From: a virus
Virus record (IMG/VR): IMGVR_UViG_3300049846_001106
Location: 1-23,151 of that record
Length of the DNA: 23,151 nt
Reading direction: 5' to 3' (one strand)
In this document: piece after piece, positions 4,223 through 20,811 of the stretch
How the letters are laid out: every line of letters begins with the position of its first letter
Position numbering within the stretch: position 1 is the first letter of the stretch
Position numbers and translations under genes: made by a program
Notes under the pieces: generated by a model
What the model was told of the DNA's origin: nothing
Databases searched by the model: none
The model's input: the letters and a program-made list of their open reading frames with translations, nothing else

Positions 4223-5056
4223 TTAATTATCTTGGGGAAGCTTTCCTTTCTTTCTCATATCTGTTAGAAAGGCTTCGGCTGCAGTCTGTCCCTTACTCAT
4301 TCTGATCGTTAAAAACTGTTCATGAATTCTAGTAAGTTCGGCTGCATCTACGCTCTTCTGGGTTTCAACGGCGGTCACGGGACTAACATTTGGAGAGTGA
4401 ACTTCTCCGCTAGGTATCCGAGACATACCATCCCCAAGCTTATCAGCAATCTTAACTATGTCAACATTCTTAAGTGTTTGTGTGATTTCCATATCCAGAA
4501 CTGAATCTTCTAGGGTGGAGAGATCTTGGGCTTTGACCTCATGATCACGCAGCACTCTCAATGTTTGTAAGTGAGATTCCTTTACCTTTCTTGTGTCTAA
4601 CTTTGCCTTAACTACACTATCTTGAAGAGCATCAAAATCTTTAGATAGCGCAGCGTATTCTTTACGTTGTGCTTCTAATCTTCCCTTTAGCTCTTCAATC
4701 GTTCCTTCGAGAGCAGAGATCTTATCAGCTAAGACCTTCTTCTCGTCTACGACAGGTTCTGTGGTAACAGGAGGTTCTGTAGTGACTTTAGCATCTTCAG
4801 TTTTAACCTCTTCTGTTTTGACTTCTTCAGTCTTTGTTTCCTCTGTCTTAGCATCTTCTGTTTTGTTTTCAGTAGTCGTAACAGTTTCTTCGACCTTTGT
4901 TTCCTCAGTCTTTGAATCAGCTACCGGAGCATCAGAAGCTGGAGCAGTTGTTGTAACAACTTCTTCAGTCTTGACTGCAGGTTGCTCACTCGGTACGACC
5001 GTTGAGTCTTGAACTTTTACGCCTTCTTCATTCTTTTTGGCGTCCTCAATCTTCAT
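4223..5056 (-). CDS. Nested in-frame scaffold protein (internal start)
   Basis: Same frame and stop as the protease gene. ATG at 5056-5054 (residue M319 of the long form) gives a 277-aa product starting MKIEDAKKNEEGV. Directly upstream is a complete AAGGAGG (5071-5065) with an 8-nt spacer. That is as strong as the sites of the capsid and decoration genes, and better than the start of the full-length protease. The product would be the scaffold alone: acidic Glu/Thr/Val-rich region, coiled coil and a helical C-terminus (LTRIHEQFLTIRMSKGQTAA). The arrangement matches lambda C/Nu3, where a nested start supplies excess scaffold over protease. The start is inferred from sequence. Confidence 0.8.
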   Translation of the reverse strand: MKIEDAKKNEEGVKVQDSTVVPSEQPAVKTEEVVTTTAPASDAPVADSKTEETKVEETVTTTENKTEDAKTEETKTEEVKTEEVKTEDAKVTTEPPVTTEPVVDEKKVLADKISALEGTIEELKGRLEAQRKEYAALSKDFDALQDSVVKAKLDTRKVKESHLQTLRVLRDHEVKAQDLSTLEDSVLDMEITQTLKNVDIVKIADKLGDGMSRIPSGEVHSPNVSPVTAVETQKSVDAAELTRIHEQFLTIRMSKGQTAAEAFLTDMRKKGKLPQDN

Positions 5057-6010
5057 TGAGTTTTCCTCCTTAATAGGTAATTCATACTGAGGGAATCCAA
5101 GTCTTGCTTCTGTAAGTCGACCTGAAAACTGCTTTTCAGTCTTTACATTGTCCTGAATTCCATTGTAGTTTAACTCTAAAACTTTTGAGTGTCTATCAGC
5201 AGGTACATTAACGAATGAATATTCATCATAAGTTAGATCGCCTGCAATAACGAAACACTTCGCACCGTCATAGATCCCACCTGGCCTATGCTCACACTGA
5301 CCTGTATCTGTCCAGTCTGTTCTGCAGATAGAACAAATAGCAGCATTAGTTGTAGCACCTACTGAACCAGTTAGATATCTACCATCTAGAAGCTTTTGAA
5401 TAGCTTCTGGATCTGTAATATTAGCAACTAGTTCAATATAACCAAGACCATCATATGACTTATCTTCTAGAATTGAATCCTTGAGTATGCTTGTTACTAC
5501 ATCTACCTGCATACCCATAGGCATCTTGCCTGAGGTAAAATCTTTGATTAGCTGTTCTGTTATCTTTCCCTTTTCGTTACCTCTACGATCTTTAACAACC
5601 ATATCTTTATATAGATCAACTACTGATCCAGAGGTATCTCTATAAGTAGCAGCTATAATACGTCCGATATTATCGGAATGGTCGTTGTGGTGCAGGAGAA
5701 CAGGCTTTGGATAGTTATCTGTAAAAGAAGATGCACCTTTCTTCATTTTATCTGGTAGATAGAATCCATTGTTTCGAGTAATTAGGCCTGAGTGTGTTGC
5801 AGCGATTCTAACCATCAATCCAGCTTGAGGAGCAGCTTGCTGCTGAACCATTTGCTGTCCTGGTAATCCTGGCATCATACCCATCCCTGATGGATGGAGT
5901 TGGCCTTCGGGTGCTGGCTTAAAAGCACCAGCATAATCATCTTTGACCCTCATTAAATTAGAGTCCAAGAGAGTAAATTGTACTGTGTCAAATATTTTTA
6001 AGCTACCCAT
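4223..6010 (-). CDS. Prohead maturation protease fused to scaffold domain
   Basis: 595 aa. The N-terminal part (about 65-280) is a U35/S78-type prohead serine protease: the His box LLHHNDHSDNIGRI (H107/H108/H111) and the Ser box RYLTGSVGA (S216). A Cys/His insert follows (C226-x2-C229 ... C239-x-H241), then the typical YDEYSFVNVPADRHSKVLEL. The C-terminal part (about 319-595) is scaffold-like: highly acidic, with a KTEE-type repeat tract (381-408) and a coiled coil at about 425-475. Proteases of this group cut scaffold and capsid N-termini during maturation. The start (ATG) has AAGGGG inside the end of the portal gene, 1 nt away. An in-frame internal start with a perfect Shine-Dalgarno makes the scaffold separately (see the nested CDS). 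The exact nucleophile assignment is by motif only. Confidence 0.8.
   Translation of the reverse strand: MGSLKIFDTVQFTLLDSNLMRVKDDYAGAFKPAPEGQLHPSGMGMMPGLPGQQMVQQQAAPQAGLMVRIAATHSGLITRNNGFYLPDKMKKGASSFTDNYPKPVLLHHNDHSDNIGRIIAATYRDTSGSVVDLYKDMVVKDRRGNEKGKITEQLIKDFTSGKMPMGMQVDVVTSILKDSILEDKSYDGLGYIELVANITDPEAIQKLLDGRYLTGSVGATTNAAICSICRTDWTDTGQCEHRPGGIYDGAKCFVIAGDLTYDEYSFVNVPADRHSKVLELNYNGIQDNVKTEKQFSGRLTEARLGFPQYELPIKEENSMKIEDAKKNEEGVKVQDSTVVPSEQPAVKTEEVVTTTAPASDAPVADSKTEETKVEETVTTTENKTEDAKTEETKTEEVKTEEVKTEDAKVTTEPPVTTEPVVDEKKVLADKISALEGTIEELKGRLEAQRKEYAALSKDFDALQDSVVKAKLDTRKVKESHLQTLRVLRDHEVKAQDLSTLEDSVLDMEITQTLKNVDIVKIADKLGDGMSRIPSGEVHSPNVSPVTAVETQKSVDAAELTRIHEQFLTIRMSKGQTAAEAFLTDMRKKGKLPQDN
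4788..4868 (-). repeat. KTE[E/D]-type tandem repeat tract in scaffold
   Basis: Short degenerate tandem repeats encode about six units of KTE[E/D] plus a spacer residue (residues about 381-408 of the long protease form; for example KTEETKTEEVKTEEVKTEDA). The DNA repeats a TTCTTCAGT/TTCTGTTTT-like unit. The tract is acidic and low in complexity, probably a flexible linker between the protease and the coiled-coil scaffold. Copy number may vary between related phages. Confidence 0.75.
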
Positions 6011-11593: not shown

Positions 11594-13651
11594 TTATATA
11601 TTCTTACGTCTAGGCTTACCAAGACGCAAGGGCTGAAGTCCTAATCTTTTCCTTGCATCGTTTTCAGCTTGACCCAAAGTCTTTGGTTCTGGTCTTGGTC
11701 CATCTCTATAAAAGTTTTCCCAGCTCCAGATTCCAACAGATGTATCTCTCTTTGTATTACTTGCTGGTAAGTCACCTTTATTTTTGAAGAGTGACATCTG
11801 AGAAGATTTATCAGATGGTAATGCTCTTGAATTCACCGCTTCTCGATCTTTCTTTTGACGTTCTCGAATACTTTGAAGATCAGGTTTAATTACTGTATCT
11901 CCAGAGCCCGTAGGTGCTTCAAGCTTCTCACCAAACTGACCAGCAAAGGTAATATTTGTTTCAAAGCGTGGCTTACCAAGTGGGGTAGCTTCAAGAACGA
12001 AAGCTACAATAGACAACATAACTGCATCTAGTAAGTGATCTCCAATTTCATCTGATGAAGCTTTATAAACAGGTCTTCCTGTTGGAGTTATTCTATCAAT
12101 AACATAACTTAGAAGTTGTTGTTCTAAGTCAGTATCTGCTTCAGGTATCTCAATATCCTGAGCCTCGAATCTACGAATAGTTGATTCTACTAGGAATGGC
12201 TTAGCATCTTTATTTGAGGGCATACCTGTAAAGATATCTCTTGTTTCTACCTTAGATCCAAAATCATACTGTTTAAGTACATTAATCAATTTAGAGTCTG
12301 GATGCGCTGGTCCCTTTGTTGGATTTCTTAAAGAGTCATACCCAAACTTCTTTAGAACTTCGAATTGAGTACCACCAAATCCTGCATCAAGATAGATAGC
12401 AATAGGTTTCCATAGTCTATTTACCTCAGCTATCTTTTCACAGGCAGCAAGTTGGGTCCACCCCTCTCTACTTACAATATGTCTATCTACAAGAACAAAC
12501 TTATTTCTTGTTGGATCTAATCCAAGAATAGCAATAGTTGTACCATTAGCCGTATCGTTCCAATCTACACCTACTGTATAGGTCCAAGAAGAACGATGAG
12601 GAATATCACCATACTTATACTGTCGTCTAGCTGCTTGGACATAGGCATTCTGGAAGACACCTTCTTCCTGTTCACCAAACTCAGCCAAGACTTCATGCTT
12701 ATAACCAATCTCTGTAAGTGATTCTCTAAACAACTGATCTTGTTGCTCAGAATACATTGGGTTAACAGAAGAAGGATAGTGAAATTCCTTCCATGTCTTT
12801 GACATGCATGTCTGATAGAATCTTTCTCGTTTACCAGACGGCGTAGAGGACATCCATACAGTAGCGTTGGGATGGTTTGTTACAATTGATAGAGCTGAAT
12901 CAATGTCTCCAGCAGACAGATAGTCTGCTTCGTCAAAGATTAGCATGTTACCGGTTTGACCACGAACTGAACCAGCATTCCCACCTGATTTTGTGCCAGC
13001 TGTAAAACCTCTAATAGTAGAACCATTCATTAGTTCTATTGTATAGATAGGAGCTTTTACATTACGCTTTAATGAATTTTGTGTAACTGGAGATGCTTGT
13101 ATTAATTGCATAATACGAGCAAAGATAACTTCGATTTGTGATTGATATGGAGTGATAACAATAATCTTAAAGCCTTCTCCTTCGGGAATACCAGGCTTAG
13201 TAAACATATGGAAAAGAGCATTAATAACTAGAGCGTCAGTCTTTCCAGCCTGACGACCTATTCTTGCTACTTTACGTTTAGCAGTACATCGTAACATTTC
13301 ACCTTGATAAGGACGATGGTATCGTGAATGACCTAAAAGAGATTTGCCAGGATTAGCTTTAACCCAGTCATCATACTCATCAGGATTCTTACGTTTCCAG
13401 ATTTCTCCATCAGCATCGAAACAATGCCAGTCAAGAGTCTCAGCAGCCCAAGCCACTGGATCTAACATTGACAAGGCAGAGGAATGTTCTTTTGAACTTA
13501 AAGAAGCGAGTACACTTAAAGGTACGAAATCCTTTGGGATTCCATTACATAAGACCTTGAAAGATTCACCTTTTTCAGGATTGTGTTTAGCTTTATATTT
13601 CTTTATACAACCAAAACAAGCCTGATCGCAATTATTTAAATTGATTGCCAT
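11594..13651 (-). CDS. terL: Terminase large subunit (packaging ATPase-nuclease)
   Basis: 685 aa; powers DNA packaging through the portal and cuts the concatemer. ATPase: Walker A RIGRQAGKT (G132-T138; K137), Walker B NMLIFDEAD (D240, E241), and coupling motif WMSSTPSGKRE. RNase H-like nuclease: GVDWND (D363), IYLDAGFGG (D422) and DHLLDAVM (D542) supply the metal-binding acids. Unusual is the N-terminal C8-x3-C12-x2-C15-x19-C35 cluster, a possible zinc or Fe-S site. No Shine-Dalgarno precedes the ATG; instead a TATACT box (13661-13666) ends 9 nt upstream, so a leaderless or short-leader transcript is possible in addition to operon read-through. Start chosen because it retains the Cys cluster. 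Confidence 0.95.
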   Translation of the reverse strand: MAINLNNCDQACFGCIKKYKAKHNPEKGESFKVLCNGIPKDFVPLSVLASLSSKEHSSALSMLDPVAWAAETLDWHCFDADGEIWKRKNPDEYDDWVKANPGKSLLGHSRYHRPYQGEMLRCTAKRKVARIGRQAGKTDALVINALFHMFTKPGIPEGEGFKIIVITPYQSQIEVIFARIMQLIQASPVTQNSLKRNVKAPIYTIELMNGSTIRGFTAGTKSGGNAGSVRGQTGNMLIFDEADYLSAGDIDSALSIVTNHPNATVWMSSTPSGKRERFYQTCMSKTWKEFHYPSSVNPMYSEQQDQLFRESLTEIGYKHEVLAEFGEQEEGVFQNAYVQAARRQYKYGDIPHRSSWTYTVGVDWNDTANGTTIAILGLDPTRNKFVLVDRHIVSREGWTQLAACEKIAEVNRLWKPIAIYLDAGFGGTQFEVLKKFGYDSLRNPTKGPAHPDSKLINVLKQYDFGSKVETRDIFTGMPSNKDAKPFLVESTIRRFEAQDIEIPEADTDLEQQLLSYVIDRITPTGRPVYKASSDEIGDHLLDAVMLSIVAFVLEATPLGKPRFETNITFAGQFGEKLEAPTGSGDTVIKPDLQSIRERQKKDREAVNSRALPSDKSSQMSLFKNKGDLPASNTKRDTSVGIWSWENFYRDGPRPEPKTLGQAENDARKRLGLQPLRLGKPRRKNI

Positions 13652-13689: not shown

Positions 13690-14115
13690 TTAACGCCTAC
13701 CTAAACCTCGTATTTTATTAAGAGGTTGATTAGACATTAAGCGAGCGCCTTTCATTACATCTCCACGCATTTGTCCCATAGCAGAACTAGCACCTCTTCG
13801 GAATATATCGCCTATACCAGCATTAGACTTTATAGCACGACCCATTCCTTTTACAGCAGCACCACCATAACGAGCACCACCGGCACCAAGACCAGCACCC
13901 ATCGCCATACCGCCAAGAATAGAAGTGTCGTCTGACATTGCTCCATAGAGTCCACCAGCAGCTGTGCCAATTGCAGCTCCTTGCATAGTTCGTCCGAATT
14001 GACCTGCAAAAGCACCTCTGACAGCACTGCCAGTCATTAGTCCACGAGCACCTGCCAAACTAGCCATTGGGCCCGCTCGTCCTAATAGGCCTCGTGCTAA
14101 ACCTTGCAGAAACAT
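13690..14115 (-). CDS. Small Gly/Ala-rich basic protein, unknown
   Basis: 141 aa. Very rich in Gly, Ala, Met and Arg, with glycine-zipper-like stretches (AAIGTAAGGLYGAM, GGMAMGAGLGAGGARYGGAA) and a basic C-terminus (MKGARLMSNQPLNKIRGLGRR, last residues NKIRGLGRR). Start has a GGAGGT Shine-Dalgarno. It belongs to a run of three similar proteins between the 1455-aa protein and TerL. Glycine zippers often make membrane-inserting helices. Holin, pilot/ejection or packaged basic protein are all possible; no family recognised. Its composition resembles the inter-module segments of the 1455-aa protein. Confidence 0.6.
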   Translation of the reverse strand: MFLQGLARGLLGRAGPMASLAGARGLMTGSAVRGAFAGQFGRTMQGAAIGTAAGGLYGAMSDDTSILGGMAMGAGLGAGGARYGGAAVKGMGRAIKSNAGIGDIFRRGASSAMGQMRGDVMKGARLMSNQPLNKIRGLGRR

Positions 14116-14118
14116 ACC

Positions 14119-14655
14119 TTACCTCCGAATAGTAGACAATCCTCTATATGATGTATGAAGATATTGAGCTTCATTACCAATTGCCATTCTAGCATTCAAT
14201 GCAGAATTGTTCAACGCTTGTAATGATCTAGCTCGTTCAGTAGAGGCGTTATCTATAACGTTGAGCATCTTTCTACTTCCAAACATTTCTGTTCTTCTTA
14301 CATCTTCTCTGTACATCTTTGCTCGATTACCAAATTGATATGCGGCAAAACCAGCACCACCAACAGCAGCAAGGCCAATACCAATTGGATTAGAAAGTGC
14401 AGCTATAGCCATGTCACCTGCTGCCCACATTCCAACGCCGATAGCTGCTTCTTTAGCTGCTCCAGTTACTCCACCTTCTTTATATCCACCATATACTTGT
14501 GAGGCAGTCATTCCAAGAGCTAGTCCACCCATAGCCTTAGCACCAAGACTTCCACCTCTCATCCCAAGGAAGCCTTTTGATATCATAGCTCCACCTTCTT
14601 TTTCGAAGACGAAGCCTACTGACTGTGCAGCCGATCTACCAATAAATCGGCCCAT
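14119..14655 (-). CDS. Small Gly/Ala-rich protein with hydrophobic core, unknown
   Basis: 178 aa. Residues about 35-110 form glycine-rich hydrophobic segments (AMGGLALGMTASQVYGGY, AAIGVGMWAAGDMAIAAL, IGIGLAAVGGAGFAAYQFG), likely two or three membrane-type helices. The C-terminal 65 residues are charged and helical (AKMYREDVRRTEMF, ASTERARSLQALNNSALNAR). No Shine-Dalgarno is visible before the ATG, and about 35 nt separate it from the gene upstream. Same compositional class as its two neighbours. Function unknown; membrane-active virion protein is a guess from composition. Confidence 0.55.
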   Translation of the reverse strand: MGRFIGRSAAQSVGFVFEKEGGAMISKGFLGMRGGSLGAKAMGGLALGMTASQVYGGYKEGGVTGAAKEAAIGVGMWAAGDMAIAALSNPIGIGLAAVGGAGFAAYQFGNRAKMYREDVRRTEMFGSRKMLNVIDNASTERARSLQALNNSALNARMAIGNEAQYLHTSYRGLSTIRR

Positions 14656-14690: not shown

Positions 14691-15353
14691 TTATCCATGT
14701 CTCCCTCTATGGAGTCCTTGAGTTAGACCCATAGTGCTATTCATAAACTCTGTTGTATTTCGATTCATTGCGCGACCTGAAGCAACTCCACCAGTACCTA
14801 TCTGTTGATTATCAGCCATACGCATTGTAGCATATTGTCCCATCTCTGGAGTATAAGCAGGATTGATTCTTCCACCTGGACCTGTACCAAGAAATGGATT
14901 TAGAGTAGGAGAAAATGAGTTTCCCGCTACTACAGCAGCTCCTACACCAGCAGCAGTTATTGCTCCCAAACCAAGAGCTGTTTTAGGATTCTCAGCTGCA
15001 AAGACCGCAGCTCTAGTCCCTACATTTTTAGCGAATCTACCAGATGCACCAAGAAGATCTTTCCCTAGACCTTTAACTCCTGTAAGAGTTCCCATTCGAC
15101 CAATAGCTGGAACCGGGAATCCAAACTTACCGATTGATCCTCGTCTAAATCCAATAGCGCCTAAAGCTCCACCTAGTAATGCACCTTTAGCAATAGATTC
15201 AGTTTGTAGATTTGCGTTATCATAACCTGAAGCAGCACCTATAGCACCACCAATACCAGCGCCAAGAAGTCCACGCTTTAAAGGACCACCTGAAGCTAAA
15301 CCCCAAGTTCCTTTTGCTACTTTTGCAGCGCTACCTAATATTGCACCTAACAT
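14691..15353 (-). CDS. Gly/Ala-rich protein with glycine zippers, unknown
   Basis: 220 aa. Starts MLGAILGSAAKVAKGTWGLA and has several glycine-zipper segments (LLGAGIGGAIGAASG, GALLGGALGAIGF, ALGLGAITAAGVGAAVVAGN). The C-terminal 70 residues are hydrophilic, with Asn, Met and Gly (YTPEMGQYATMRMADNQQIG). GGATGGAG precedes the ATG. It starts right after the stop of the 1455-aa protein (14 nt), so the pair is probably co-translated. The zipper segments resemble those between modules in the giant protein. I infer a membrane-interacting or virion-internal role; no family recognised. Confidence 0.6.
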   Translation of the reverse strand: MLGAILGSAAKVAKGTWGLASGGPLKRGLLGAGIGGAIGAASGYDNANLQTESIAKGALLGGALGAIGFRRGSIGKFGFPVPAIGRMGTLTGVKGLGKDLLGASGRFAKNVGTRAAVFAAENPKTALGLGAITAAGVGAAVVAGNSFSPTLNPFLGTGPGGRINPAYTPEMGQYATMRMADNQQIGTGGVASGRAMNRNTTEFMNSTMGLTQGLHRGRHG

Positions 15354-15367
15354 TTAAAACTCCATCC

Positions 15368-18300
15368 TTATTGTACCAGACCACCAGATTTTTTTCTATG
15401 TTTAATGCCACCAGTTGAAGCATTTGTCCAAAAGTCCTCAACAGTCTTTCGTTGTAAATTTGCCTGTGCTACCTTATTGATTTGAGGAGCGGGAGATTCA
15501 CCAAATAACTCATCGAAAGCATTATCAACATTACTTTCACCACTAGACATTATAGAAGTTGCCTTTGCTGCTTGTGATGTTGTCTGTGTTGACTTAAAAG
15601 CTGTTTTCAATCCACCTATATCTATAGCACCAAGAGTACCAGTTGCTGCGAATGGATCAATAGAGGCTGCGGGTCTTCGAGTTAGACCATAGTCAACAAG
15701 ACCAACACGCGGACCCAAAGGAGTATCAACTGCCATTATATTTCTAAGAGCTACGTCATTATGCTCAAACCCAAGTTGATGTAATTTCCTAAGAGCTTCT
15801 TCTGCTCCCTGTTCATATTGATGAAGGACAGATGAATCTACACGGCTTAATGCCTTCCCATGAAAGAGTTCAATATCTAGTGTATTTTTTCCAACACCAT
15901 ATAGAGAAGGACTATGTTCATATCCTAAAGACATTAACTCTTTTAGTGTCTCTGGTTCATTCTTTCCAATTTCACCTATCTTTCTAGCAAATTCGAAACG
16001 TTGTCCTCTAAACTCTGACGACATTTTAAAGACCTGGCCCTGTACACCTTCACCAAGTACCTCTAGTTGTCTAGCTCCCGCTAGAGCTGACTTAAACTCA
16101 CTAGTAGCAAGCATGGATTCAAATGTTTCACCGGCCCTTACTAATCCACGTAGACTATCCCAGCCAGAACCGAAGTCAGTATTTAGTTTACGACCAATCC
16201 AGGCAATACCTTTATGGCCTAATCCTTCGATATTGTTATAAGCATCCTTAAACCCAGAGAATCTACCACGCTTATCTCGATGCTGCCATTTAGCATCTAC
16301 TGACTTCTTAAGAGCAGCAAGATCTTCTTCATCGTTACCAGGATCAGCTAGAGTATTTACAAGTTCCATATATCTTGGGTTAATTTCTTTTCCTAGTCTT
16401 TTTGCTAGATCCTCGCCACCAAAGACTTGACCCTTTAGATAATAAAAAGCTCCAGGAATACCTTCTGTAATAACGTGTGGAATACCTCTTAGAAACTCAA
16501 GAACAGGTTGAATGAAAGATACATCCTTGCCTTCCTTCTTTTGTTCATAGAGACGCTTCAATAACATAGTTGATGCTTCATGTTCATCTCTATGCATTGT
16601 CCAAGCATCACCATGACTATGGATGTGATAAGTAGAGCGTGTATTCCGCCACGATGTCCAGCGATCCTGACCAGACTCAGGGATAGCTACTTTAACAGGA
16701 ACGAAACCAAGTTCCTTTTCCATCTCTTCTTCCGAGATGACATACTTAGGAATGATAATACGTTTATGACCTGTTCCTGTTTCTTGTCCATAGGCTTCTA
16801 GTGCTTTTTTGAAAATCTCAAATCGCTCAGCAGCTGTTTCTTTTCCTGTGTAACCGCTACCGAAGTGAGTATTTTCTTTACGTTGCATACCAAACCAACC
16901 ATGTGGCATGGCATCGATAATTACATAGTTATCGTCTTTAGCTGAGAAATGATTATCGTAATACTCGGCAGACCTATCTATAAACTGGCGACCAGGAGCT
17001 GTACGATAAACAAGAATAGCAGCATCATCAACCATATTGATAACACCACCAACCCAACCTGATCCGAAATCAGTTAATTCTTTTCGCTTCTTTTCAGCTT
17101 CACCACCATGCCGCAAACCTTCTATTGTGTTATGTGCATCATCCTTAGCTGTTATCTTATTTACTGCTCGTGTTTTCTTTTTAGTTCCCTTTTTATCACC
17201 TGCAAAGAGCTTATGAATGCCGTAAGCTATGCCACTTTGTATTCCTGCCATAAGTATGGGTAGTCCCATCTGCATAAGCATGGCTTTGCCATAGTGTAGG
17301 TTATGAGCTTTATTCCACTTTGGTAAAAATTCACTAATTAGTTTTTTATCCCATTTAGCTCCATGCTCTAAGAAGTGACCAAGTGTTTTATTAGCTTGTC
17401 TTTCTTCAAATAGAACACTGAGACCAGCAGCAGCAGAAAGACCAGCACTAACACCAAGCATAGGTAACGGATTCGCACCAGTTGCGAGTGTATAGATTGG
17501 TAAACCAAGATTTATAGCAGCTGAACCAATTCCAGCAAATCGACCACTCATTCCTACTGTAGCTAACTTACCCTTGAGACTATTAACCCCAACTCGGGCA
17601 TGTCCTAATTCGTGTCCTAGCGCTACTTCAGCTACCTGTTTATCTTGAAGACCATTTAAAGCTTTTGAAAGATTAGGTTTATTTTTTAGGCGACCAAGTT
17701 CACCATAGTTTATTGTTACTTGTTTGTTTAAGAAATTATATGTTGTATTCTGACCTATCTTATGCCAGATACTCGTTACTTGTGGAGGATCCATAAAGTG
17801 TCGTACTTCTGGAGCCCATGAAGTATTATGTAGTTCTCTAAATGCACGCTTAAAGCTATCAATCTCATACTCAGATAGCATTTGCTTGGGATCGAATCCT
17901 GAACCAAAATGGGTTAGCTCTTTTCTCTTTCGTTCAGCTATACCTCCATGTCGTAAGCCCTCTATGGTATTATGAGAGTCGTCTCGGCCAGAAAATCTAT
18001 TTCGTTTCTTTCTAAGATCTTCTATGAATCTCTGAACTCGTTTTTCTCTTTCCTTTTTTCGTCTTTCCTCTTGAATATTGTTTGCATATAGACCTGCACC
18101 AATTAGACCAGCACCACCAGCTGCACCAATAGCGTTAACCTGTGTTTTGGTAAATTCTGCATATGTTTCTTTTAGCTGACCTGTCTTCTTAATTTCTTGG
18201 TATAGACTATTAAGTTCCTGCATATGACTAGTAGAACCACCCCGATCAGGATGGTATTTCATTGCAAGATCTTTATATATCTCCTTGGCCTTATTAGAAT

Positions 18301-19735
18301 CAAAAGAATGTGTAATGGTTCTTTTTAACGATGTTCTTTCTCCTGAAAGAGTGGAGAGAACAAGCTCTCCCATATCTGCTGCTTTCTTAAACCATCCACT
18401 AAAACCTGTTCTACCTATAAACTCAGACTGTAACTGCTTTCTAATACTAGCAAGCGGAACTTCACGAGTAGCCTTGCCAGCATACTTTATTAACTGATAA
18501 CCAGAACCGAAGTCTGTTAGTTCTTTACGTTTCTTCTCGGCCTGACCACCATGACGAAGGCCCTCAATCGTATTGTACTTATCATCCTTACCAGAGAACA
18601 TTGATAAGGGCTTCAGGACCCATGCGGCAGCTAACCCAACGCCAGTACCAATGAGTAAGGGGTGTGCCTTAGCAGAAGACAACATATCTGCAAAGATCTT
18701 CTTGTTAAATCCTGGCTTATTAAGAAAGAACTTCTCGCTAGTTTCCTTAATGGCCTCACCAGCCATAATTCTTTCTGGTGCTACCTTATATGAACTAGCT
18801 AGTTCTCGAATATCTCCAAGCAGTCCTTCTTCTATCGAGGGCAGCGCCCCGCCGCCAAAAGAGACTGGCGACTTTGCCTTCTGAAGGATTTCTGTGATCT
18901 TTTCTGGGGTATTACCACTTCGAATACTGGATATGTATTTTCTTCTGAGAGCTTGTTGATGCCAAGCTTTGACTTTCTCGGGATCGCCTCCAAAGATAGG
19001 CTTATCTAATAGATCAGCTAATTGCTGACCAGCCATAACATCTTCTTCTGATAAGTGAGCCCGCAAGGGCTCCCCGACGCCCAAGAGTTTATAGAGATCC
19101 TCTTGTTTCCAACCGGCTACCTTATAGCCCTGTGTAGCTAACCACTTAGCCGTCTGTTGATCTGTCGCTCCGCTCTGATGTTGATAGGCCTTGCCTGACT
19201 CGACATAGGTTTTTATTTGGGAATAGAAATCTTGCTCGATAAGCTCCGGAAATTGATAGGCTTCGTTTGCAACCTTCCATGCATATTCCTGACCTATATC
19301 TCGGATCTTAAATTTCCCTAATGCTGCTTGATATCTATTCTCTAGGCCGTAGGCCTTGGCGCGTGTAAGCAACATAGGAATATCAAATCCCTGTGTACGC
19401 TCACCAAATGTCTGGCCCTGACGCTGATATCCAATATTCCAACCCGCAAGAGTTCCACCCTCTTCCGAGGTTTCGAGGACACCTAGAAAGGACTCAAGAG
19501 CAGTTTGCTCTGATGTCGCCTTTTGGCCCGTAGTCTGTAACCGTTCTTTTATCGGTCTCCAGACATTCTCATTGGACCACTGATAGACCCTAGATCCGTA
19601 AGCAGGGTCTGCGTAGAGACTCTGTACCTTTTCTCCTGGTCTTCCATAGGAGATTGAGAGAATAGAAGATTGGTGACCAGAAAGGCCACCTGCTTCTAGA
19701 TCAAAGAAAAGAAATGGTTTTTTAGGTGTGGTCAT
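15368..19735 (-). CDS. Giant modular protein: DEDDh exonuclease, DnaJ, M48 peptidase, kinase, joined by 34-aa repeats
   Basis: 1455 aa. Modules in order: DEDDh 3'-5' exonuclease at 8-235 (FFDLEAGG D12/E14; FDIPML D118; HLSEED H227/D232); repeat R1 at 380-413; DnaJ domain about 475-520 (KYHPDRGG, HPD 495-497); R2 581-614; M48-like zinc peptidase (HELGH 708-712; FEERQAN with E778) with membrane-type helices; R3 861-894; short segment 895-929; R4 930-962; an unassigned His-rich module 963-1158 (HIHSHGD at 1037-1043); R5 1159-1192; protein-kinase-like module about 1220-1370 (GEGVQGQV 1228-1235, K1252, HNDVALRN with D1327/N1332, VDYG with D1348). Key residues all look intact. The start overlaps the upstream gene by 14 nt with no good Shine-Dalgarno, suggesting coupling. 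I infer a polyprotein or modular cargo protein delivered with, or processed in, the virion. Individual domains are called from motifs only. Confidence 0.85.
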   Translation of the reverse strand: MTTPKKPFLFFDLEAGGLSGHQSSILSISYGRPGEKVQSLYADPAYGSRVYQWSNENVWRPIKERLQTTGQKATSEQTALESFLGVLETSEEGGTLAGWNIGYQRQGQTFGERTQGFDIPMLLTRAKAYGLENRYQAALGKFKIRDIGQEYAWKVANEAYQFPELIEQDFYSQIKTYVESGKAYQHQSGATDQQTAKWLATQGYKVAGWKQEDLYKLLGVGEPLRAHLSEEDVMAGQQLADLLDKPIFGGDPEKVKAWHQQALRRKYISSIRSGNTPEKITEILQKAKSPVSFGGGALPSIEEGLLGDIRELASSYKVAPERIMAGEAIKETSEKFFLNKPGFNKKIFADMLSSAKAHPLLIGTGVGLAAAWVLKPLSMFSGKDDKYNTIEGLRHGGQAEKKRKELTDFGSGYQLIKYAGKATREVPLASIRKQLQSEFIGRTGFSGWFKKAADMGELVLSTLSGERTSLKRTITHSFDSNKAKEIYKDLAMKYHPDRGGSTSHMQELNSLYQEIKKTGQLKETYAEFTKTQVNAIGAAGGAGLIGAGLYANNIQEERRKKEREKRVQRFIEDLRKKRNRFSGRDDSHNTIEGLRHGGIAERKRKELTHFGSGFDPKQMLSEYEIDSFKRAFRELHNTSWAPEVRHFMDPPQVTSIWHKIGQNTTYNFLNKQVTINYGELGRLKNKPNLSKALNGLQDKQVAEVALGHELGHARVGVNSLKGKLATVGMSGRFAGIGSAAINLGLPIYTLATGANPLPMLGVSAGLSAAAGLSVLFEERQANKTLGHFLEHGAKWDKKLISEFLPKWNKAHNLHYGKAMLMQMGLPILMAGIQSGIAYGIHKLFAGDKKGTKKKTRAVNKITAKDDAHNTIEGLRHGGEAEKKRKELTDFGSGWVGGVINMVDDAAILVYRTAPGRQFIDRSAEYYDNHFSAKDDNYVIIDAMPHGWFGMQRKENTHFGSGYTGKETAAERFEIFKKALEAYGQETGTGHKRIIIPKYVISEEEMEKELGFVPVKVAIPESGQDRWTSWRNTRSTYHIHSHGDAWTMHRDEHEASTMLLKRLYEQKKEGKDVSFIQPVLEFLRGIPHVITEGIPGAFYYLKGQVFGGEDLAKRLGKEINPRYMELVNTLADPGNDEEDLAALKKSVDAKWQHRDKRGRFSGFKDAYNNIEGLGHKGIAWIGRKLNTDFGSGWDSLRGLVRAGETFESMLATSEFKSALAGARQLEVLGEGVQGQVFKMSSEFRGQRFEFARKIGEIGKNEPETLKELMSLGYEHSPSLYGVGKNTLDIELFHGKALSRVDSSVLHQYEQGAEEALRKLHQLGFEHNDVALRNIMAVDTPLGPRVGLVDYGLTRRPAASIDPFAATGTLGAIDIGGLKTAFKSTQTTSQAAKATSIMSSGESNVDNAFDELFGESPAPQINKVAQANLQRKTVEDFWTNASTGGIKHRKKSGGLVQ
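16160..16261 (-). repeat. Inter-module repeat R5
   Basis: Residues 1159-1192. FSGFKDAYNNIEGLGHKG ... RKLNTDFGSGW. Separates the His-rich module from the kinase-like module. Confidence 0.93.
16850..16948 (-). repeat. Inter-module repeat R4 (divergent)
   Basis: Residues 930-962, 33 aa, one residue shorter than the others. FSAKDDNYVIIDAMPHGW ... RKENTHFGSGY. NTIEGL is changed to VIIDAM, but the FS-x-KDD start, PHG and FGSG end remain. Only 35 residues separate it from R3. Confidence 0.85.
17054..17155 (-). repeat. Inter-module repeat R3
   Basis: Residues 861-894. ITAKDDAHNTIEGLRHGG ... RKELTDFGSGW. Follows the peptidase module, a hydrophobic segment (PILMAGIQSGIAYGI) and a Lys-rich stretch. 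Confidence 0.95.
17894..17995 (-). repeat. Inter-module repeat R2
   Basis: Residues 581-614. FSGRDDSHNTIEGLRHGG ... RKELTHFGSGF. Separates the DnaJ module from the HELGH peptidase. Preceded by a Gly-rich hydrophobic segment (IGAAGGAGLIGAGLY) and a very basic stretch. Confidence 0.95.
18497..18598 (-). repeat. Inter-module repeat R1
   Basis: Residues 380-413 of the giant protein. FSGKDDKYNTIEGLRHGG, then about six residues, then RKELTDFGSGY. Separates the exonuclease from the DnaJ module. Directly preceded by a hydrophobic Gly-rich helix (LLIGTGVGLAAAWVL). Confidence 0.95.
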
Positions 19736-20555
19736 CGGAAGCTAAGACATCGTCCGGAGTGAGAGCTTTTTCTTTCTCTTCTTGGACTGCTTGCTGAGCT
19801 ACCTGATCCAGTTCTCTACGGAGATTCTCAAGCTTCTGGCGCATAGCCGCCATCTGAGATGATGGGTCTGAATCAAGACGCACCTTTAGAGCAGCTTCTT
19901 TCTTATACTTCTCTTGTCTATCTCCGACCATGAGCTTGATTATCTTTGTACGTCGATTAGAGATCTTTTCCTTGATCTCCATGTATGGGGATATTTGCTT
20001 CTGAACAATTGGATCCCCTTCTGAATCAACTCCAACTACCTGATCCATCAACATAGTTGAATTCTCTGGTTTAGCTAATAGCATATTCAATCGCATCTCT
20101 TGGACCATGAGATCTGCTAGTTCTGATACATATCCTACTTCCGTAAAGTTATTGGGATCTACATCGAACTCCTCGAAATACTTCATGATCCAGTCTCTAA
20201 TGAGCTGAACCTCAATAATACACTGTTTGCCTAGTGGAGCCTTATTGACCTGTTGCAAAGGGCAACGGTCTGCGAATGGACATTTGGGGCCTGCGCAATA
20301 CATAGGAGTCATTGCACTTGACCCTGTAGAGAGCTTCATGAGATGAAGGTTAATCTTCTGAGCTTCCTCAGGGGTAAACGTTATATTCTCGTAATCATCT
20401 AGGTTGTGTTGTAAGTGTCTGAAATAGCCAGACTTAACCATCTTACCTGATTCGGTAATGGCAATGCCGCCGAGAGTCACCAACTGCTTCTTCTCCCTAT
20501 TCTCAGTTGTAAATCGTGACTCAGCTTCTAGCTCTTCTCTTTTCTTAGGATCCAA
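19722..20555 (-). CDS. Four-cysteine helical protein, possible small terminase
   Basis: 277 aa from a TTG start at 20555-20553, chosen because GAGGGG (20568-20563) lies 7 nt upstream. A longer in-frame version would start at TTG 20570 but lacks this spacing. A cysteine cluster C87-x4-C92-x5-C98-x13-C112 (YCAGPKCPFADRCPL ... GKQC) is probably a zinc or Fe-S site. The rest is helical, with a C-terminal coiled coil (MRQKLENLRRELDQVAQQAV) at about 235-265. The location near the 5' end of the packaging operon and a helical fold with a C-terminal coiled coil fit a small terminase, but I see no clear helix-turn-helix. The last 14 nt overlap the start of the giant protein gene. The terminase role is tentative. 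Confidence 0.6.
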   Translation of the reverse strand: MDPKKREELEAESRFTTENREKKQLVTLGGIAITESGKMVKSGYFRHLQHNLDDYENITFTPEEAQKINLHLMKLSTGSSAMTPMYCAGPKCPFADRCPLQQVNKAPLGKQCIIEVQLIRDWIMKYFEEFDVDPNNFTEVGYVSELADLMVQEMRLNMLLAKPENSTMLMDQVVGVDSEGDPIVQKQISPYMEIKEKISNRRTKIIKLMVGDRQEKYKKEAALKVRLDSDPSSQMAAMRQKLENLRRELDQVAQQAVQEEKEKALTPDDVLASDDHT

Positions 20556-20556
20556 G

Positions 20557-20811
20557 TTATTTCCCCTCAACAGTTCTGAATAGATTGTGTACTGATTCTA
20601 CCATATCTCTGATCTGTATGTAATCTTTACGAACAAAGATATCTAATGACTTCTTGAAATAGGGACAGTCACTTCCTTGTGTCTCTCTCAGTCCTTCTGT
20701 TCTTTCGATACCTGAGTTATTCAGTCTATCTGATAATTTAGCTAATGCTATCCTTAGTGCATCTAGTTCATGTATTAGCTTTTCACCAGTAGTTAGAGTT
20801 TCTTCTGACAT
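20557..20811 (-). CDS. Small helical protein, first gene of the minus-strand operon
   Basis: 84 aa, MSEETLTTGEKLIHELDALR... The ATG at 20811-20809 is chosen over the upstream in-frame ATG at 20895, because an AGGAGG Shine-Dalgarno lies 4-5 nt upstream and the promoter -10 box (20830-20835) is placed so that only this start is inside the transcript. Predicted to be two amphipathic helices (ELDALRIALAKLSDRLNN; DYIQIRDMVESVHNLFRTVE), possibly a coiled coil. One Cys. Family not recognised. It ends 1 nt before the TTG start of the next gene. Confidence 0.75.
   Translation of the reverse strand: MSEETLTTGEKLIHELDALRIALAKLSDRLNNSGIERTEGLRETQGSDCPYFKKSLDIFVRKDYIQIRDMVESVHNLFRTVEGK

Follow-up and report, generated by a model that had tools for sequence, protein, structure and literature searches.

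A conserved 34-residue peptide repeat at the joints of putative polyvalent effector chains in uncultivated tailed phages

Introduction

The closest described counterparts of the locus studied here are the polyvalent proteins, which include DarB/DdrB of phage P1 and the virion RNA polymerase of phage N4; kinases without the C-terminal subdomain are also described among them (Iyer et al. 2017, PMC5512222). The 30 N-terminal residues of P1 DarB suffice for packaging of a reporter, and the Dar proteins showed no consensus (PMC9024508). In phage SPN3US, 13 of the 14 cut sites remove N-terminal propeptides, with cleavage after AXE (PMC10052503). Here we describe a repeat of about 34 residues that occurs five times in one open reading frame (ORF) of 1455 amino acids (aa) in IMGVR_UViG_3300049846_001106, a stretch of 23,151 nt that is a complete IMG/VR record in its own right and is called the window below. 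Polyvalent proteins are known but, to our knowledge, the way in which phages assemble, load and deliver such a variety of unrelated enzymes in one chain is not. The best explanation of the 1455-aa chain is that it is such a polyvalent protein, in which unrelated effector enzymes share one polypeptide that is encoded with head genes.

Results

The ORF is a single uninterrupted frame, from the ATG at 19735 to the stop at 15368, in which the repeats and the shortest spacer are placed as follows.

15368..19735, minus strand: ORF of the putative polyvalent effector chain, 1455 aa, five joint repeats (frame check, repeat scan, profile)
18497..18598, minus strand: repeat 1, aa 380-413, FSGKDDKYNTIEGLRHGGQAEKKRKELTDFGSGY (motif scan and profile)
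17894..17995, minus strand: repeat 2, aa 581-614 (motif scan and profile)
17054..17155, minus strand: repeat 3, aa 861-894 (motif scan and profile)
16949..17053, minus strand: 35-residue spacer, aa 895-929, between repeats 3 and 4 (segment comparison)
16850..16948, minus strand: repeat 4, diverged, aa 930-962, KDDNYVIIDAMPHGWFGMQRKENTHFGSGY (motif scan and profile)
16160..16261, minus strand: repeat 5, aa 1159-1192 (motif scan and profile; low confidence in the structural model)

Scored against a profile built with relatives included, all five copies lie far beyond chance (E 1e-11 to 4e-18), and a six-frame scan for the motif cores found no sixth copy in the window. A first-pass annotation of this DNA had placed the repeats at residues 380, 581, 861, 930 and 1159, and the motif scan returned exactly these starts. 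It had also taken all copies to follow one pattern; this holds for the five profile matches, but copy 4 has diverged, while copies 1-3 are 80-87% identical to each other at the protein level. Similarly, the joints are indeed marked by repeats, but it is not the case that every copy parts unrelated enzyme modules, as had been suggested, since copies 3 and 4 flank a mere 35-residue spacer. A similar DDxAxxxY-like stretch is seen in this spacer and in the short spacers of two relatives, L028 and L054.

To place the repeat among phages, IMG/VR was scanned with the repeat and with the terminase large subunit (TerL), and contained copies were removed. The result was 57 proteins, still including a few near-identical pairs, in which the profile made 150 hits at a limit of E 1. 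The relatives are contig fragments from uncultivated phages, and the repeat is present in about 50 further non-redundant proteins of such tailed phages. A strict set, limited to E <0.01 and to complete ORFs and with four near-duplicates dropped, holds 46 ORFs, that of the window among them, which range from 308 to 2419 aa and together carry 119 copies, 1-6 each; copy number increases with ORF length (rho 0.65). An alignment of 132 copies shows FGS to be 98-99% invariant, with G, P, K or R as the next residue and an aromatic one after it (98-100% for FGS plus the aromatic); conservation is also strong at D, N, G, R and T, over a span of about 30 positions of the repeat. Some copies lie near protein ends, with an N-terminal segment of 14-45 aa in three proteins and a C-terminal tail of 47-66 aa in three, and many inter-copy spacers are as short as 18-46 residues. 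In 29 whole records, all matches of each record fall inside one large ORF and no free-standing repeat was found on other genes, which rules out for these records the stand-alone tag that had earlier been envisaged.

The repeat had not been recognised as a named domain, and none was found: Pfam, PHROGs and PDB sequences gave no match (best E for a single member 0.17 in Pfam and 0.22 in PHROGs, and none in the PDB at E 5). Isolate phages and plasmids yielded no credible match, a single scan of bacterial genomes, made with the five copies of the window, did not find the repeat, and a search of one literature library returned no paper describing the motif. The ~34-residue repeat is undescribed.

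The segments between repeats cluster between phages although they stand at different positions, and both the order and the number of modules vary; domain names given here for relatives are motif readings, except for SNase, kinase and exonuclease. An SNase module, matched by Pfam at E 1.6e-15 in L008, is found first, in the middle or last, alone or joined to others, and is combined with a kinase in relative L018; a PD-(D/E)XK-like module is equally mobile. The kinase starts directly after a repeat in most chains, at a variable position, and L021 and L026 each have two copies of it. In all chains detected by the window's exonuclease profile, the exonuclease stands at the N-terminus. Other modules were read by eye as ART (L008_s1), GNAT (L008_s5) and PD-(D/E)XK (L011_s0). 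A C-terminal tail of about 50 residues is common to chains ending in different enzymes, and the L100 chain is reduced to a hydrophobic segment, a diverged repeat, a kinase and the tail. In other phages, then, the repeat stands beside other modules and the modules follow each other differently; this argues against a fixed domain order and supports the earlier proposal of interchangeable cargo: modules are exchanged around a constant repeat.

Selection appears on the side of the peptide. Window copies 1-3 share 8/24, 10/26 and 9/25 codons in pairwise comparison, against 10.6, 11.9 and 11.2 expected; the copies thus agree in codons no more often than expected by chance, and it is the peptide, not the DNA, that is under selection. 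Among all chains, codon sharing within proteins is 0.470 vs 0.422 expected, including L023, whose copies at aa 277 and 699 are identical with 27/28 codons the same, i.e. a recent duplication inside the chain. Repeat identity is higher within proteins (0.535) than between them (0.496), with 0/2000 label shuffles as high. In two further relatives the joint repeat is absent and the chain has its own repeat instead (KGHDxGHWGR...SGDFxPGSSW).

L136:3324-6491: chain with the variant KGHD repeat, 4 copies, same slot as the window chain
L148:2938-5646: chain with the variant KGHD repeat, 3 copies, same slot as the window chain

The variant is uniform across all copies of each protein. Its alignment with the joint repeat reaches E 0.005 in hhalign but with a probability of 7%, while slot and layout agree; a scan for further carriers gave only the L136 and L148 contigs again. 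One variant throughout each chain fits co-adaptation of the repeat to a partner, to which shared descent within the protein can contribute.

Two AlphaFold models, built from 22 and 16 sequences, place the enzyme domains with confidence but leave the repeat poorly predicted: its blocks have a predicted local distance difference test (pLDDT) score of about 30-51, and low confidence extends across the repeat in both save for one short helix. The models thus suggest that the repeat is an intrinsically disordered motif in inter-module linkers. Repeat 1 is preceded by a further element.

18602..18703, minus strand: hydrophobic segment rich in glycine, about aa 345-378, immediately ahead of repeat 1 (sequence, model)

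One homologue matches a glycine-zipper model. Such a segment is found within 40 residues before the first copy in 62% of proteins, before later copies in 23% and at random places in 4%. The exonuclease core is lost in L006, L008, L009, L093 and L100, where the hydrophobic segment and repeat 1 are retained.

Around its repeats, the window chain carries the following modules.

18746..19735, minus strand: N-terminal DEDD exonuclease module with helical extension, aa 1-330 (profile, model, Foldseek)
18197..18313, minus strand: DnaJ-like segment with HPD, aa 475-513 (Pfam E 9e-4)
17156..17893, minus strand: zincin-like peptidase module, HELGH, aa 615-860 (motif)
16262..16849, minus strand: His-rich, probably zincin-like module, aa 963-1158 (alignment with relatives)
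15626..16159, minus strand: protein-kinase module, about aa 1193-1370 (profile, fold match)
15371..15520, minus strand: C-terminal tail, about 50 aa (common to chains with different last enzymes)

Domains of several disparate activities are joined in one chain, and the names first given to the modules stand to different degrees. The first module is solidly a DEDD exonuclease (E 2e-5 for its profile against PDB exonucleases, a confident AlphaFold model, and TREX1/RNase T in Foldseek), and the last is solidly a protein kinase at family level (E 1.6e-14 against PDB kinases), with a fold match that spans only about half of a standard kinase. The DnaJ assignment is weak: the Pfam match is under the curated cut-off, with HPD retained. 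The peptidase is called from the motif ALGHELGHARV, and this module has no relative among the compared inter-repeat segments. Finally, what had been named only as His-rich is probably another zincin-like module, since it aligns with relatives having HEDVH or HEDEH; the window has HRDEH and its active site is possibly degenerate.

The chain ORF sits in a phage portal-terminase packaging context, and its slot is fixed upstream of the terminase wherever both are visible. The gene order is constant, namely a protein of the 282-aa type, the chain, small glycine-rich proteins, TerL, further head genes and the portal.

19722..20570: conserved upstream neighbour, 282 aa, Cys cluster, no assigned function (locus comparison)
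14691..15353: small glycine-rich protein, C-terminal motif STxGLVQGLHxGRHG (locus comparison)
14119..14655: small glycine-rich protein, C-terminal motif RxRSLQALxxSxLNxRxAxGNEA / TMRQRSLQAIQNSxLNGRxALGNEA (locus comparison)
13690..14115: small glycine-rich protein (locus comparison)
11594..13651: TerL (profile/homology)
4223..6010: probable prohead protease/scaffold (29% to the annotated protease of phage KLEB27-3, E 7e-24)

All six genes lie on the minus strand, and both C-terminal motifs are strongly conserved. TerL frames are about 3-4.4 kb long in L007, L009, L010, L019, L020 and L100 vs 2.1 kb in the window, perhaps owing to inteins or insertions, and short homing-endonuclease-like ORFs are seen among the head genes (L100:7294-7866 and L140:8544-9158).

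Discussion

Our preferred reading, held tentatively and with a little less than even confidence, is that the repeat, itself disordered, serves to dock or tether the modules for their loading or ejection. Each module, or the adjacent linker, would be docked by the repeat to one conserved component of the virion while the chain is loaded or ejected, and the chain could acquire new modules while the same repeat handle stays. By analogy with polyvalent proteins, and given its operon, the chain is probably packaged into virions and delivered to the host by injection along with the DNA. A more general proposal, which we regard as rather doubtful, is that the repeat serves as a plug-in joint, a peptide code of a large uncultivated lineage that co-evolves with one virion partner, such that any effector module could join a single injected chain for loading or ejection.

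Several points weigh against docking. Both the docking and its partner are putative, and packaging is itself proposed from the operon and the polyvalent-protein precedent. In most chains the repeat marks joints and not the outer ends, which is equally expected of a cleavage or spacer element. The similarity of repeats within proteins could come partly from shared ancestry, as in the recent duplication of L023. Finally, the wider phage group needs no repeat, because the isolates MTATph1, KLEB27-3 and ME3 gave no match; this search had no positive control in these genomes, and the same model matches 29/29 IMG/VR records.

The main rival explanation is that the repeats are processing sites, cut by a phage protease (the prohead protease or a zincin module of the chain) that frees the enzymes. 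Their joint position and predicted disorder would suit such a role, as would the probable prohead protease encoded nearby; moreover, P1 DdrB, a polyvalent protein, is processed prior to packaging (PMC5512222), and the head and ejection proteins of SPN3US are cleaved by its prohead protease (PMC10052503). We nonetheless consider it unlikely. The conserved stretch covers about 30 residues, whereas the motif of the SPN3US protease has three, AXE (PMC10052503). HExxH is found in only 17/53 chains (1.9 expected by chance); a zincin acting in cis cannot serve every chain because 36/53 are without it, and self-processing by this route is ruled out as a general rule. Prohead proteases also cleave capsid proteins, and no cleavage motif common to the chain and to capsid or scaffold proteins was seen when the repeat core was sought in the other ORFs of these phage loci, the specificity of the nearby protease being undefined. 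In addition, copies so close to each other or to a chain end make poor sense as cuts that free enzymes.

Alternatively, the repeat could be a flexible spacer with no specific partner, its sequence being kept for mechanical reasons such as unfolding and threading through the tail. It is disordered in the models, lies between domains and rises in number with chain length, all of which would suit a spacer. However, spacers usually drift in sequence, while FGS is nearly invariant here and further positions stay constant between highly diverged phages, and we find this explanation improbable. We give very little credence to a DNA-level recombination element, in which repeats would be retained as homologous DNA for module swapping. 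Modules are indeed exchanged at joints and one recent duplication was found, but the codon comparison disfavours this idea: codon sharing is otherwise near chance, and in the window it is at or below expectation.

A conserved joint peptide offers a handle on polyvalent delivery that can be mutated, moved to a reporter or used as bait. In metagenomes, its roughly 30-position profile also serves to detect such chains together with their new anti-host enzymes.

Like polyvalent proteins, the window chain carries disparate enzymes (peptidase, kinase, nuclease and others) in one polypeptide encoded together with the portal-terminase genes of a tailed phage, and its half-length kinase match resembles their C-terminally shortened kinases (PMC5512222). 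From the catalogue of domains of polyvalent proteins (zincin peptidase, kinase, GNAT, ART), the kinase is confirmed in the window and the zincin is recognised by motif. A term search of PMC5512222 did not find the joint repeat, and no 'large polyvalent protein' Pfam domain is among the matches listed for the window protein. Judged by its domains and gene context, the chain appears to fit this class.

The nearest isolates found are 0305phi8-36-like myoviruses, namely Moorella MTATph1, Bacillus KLEB27-3 and Acinetobacter ME3, whose TerL and portal are related. Each of the three also encodes small glycine-rich proteins ahead of TerL, and in each a C-terminal motif similar to that of 14119..14655 recurs. 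ME3_11, which occupies a similar slot, was considered as a homologue of the exonuclease module and discarded, the match not being significant (hhalign E 0.12).

The locus also recalls SPN3US and its gp53/gp54 (PMC10052503), since in both cases a large myovirus head goes with a protease and with injected proteins, injection being proposed here; unlike in SPN3US, no shared cut motif of this kind was seen here. Lastly, as with the capsid targeting sequences of T4 internal proteins and P1 DarB, a short peptide could carry different proteins into the head. Unlike the DarB signal, which is single and N-terminal (PMC9024508), the joint repeat is internal, present in 1-6 copies and strongly conserved.
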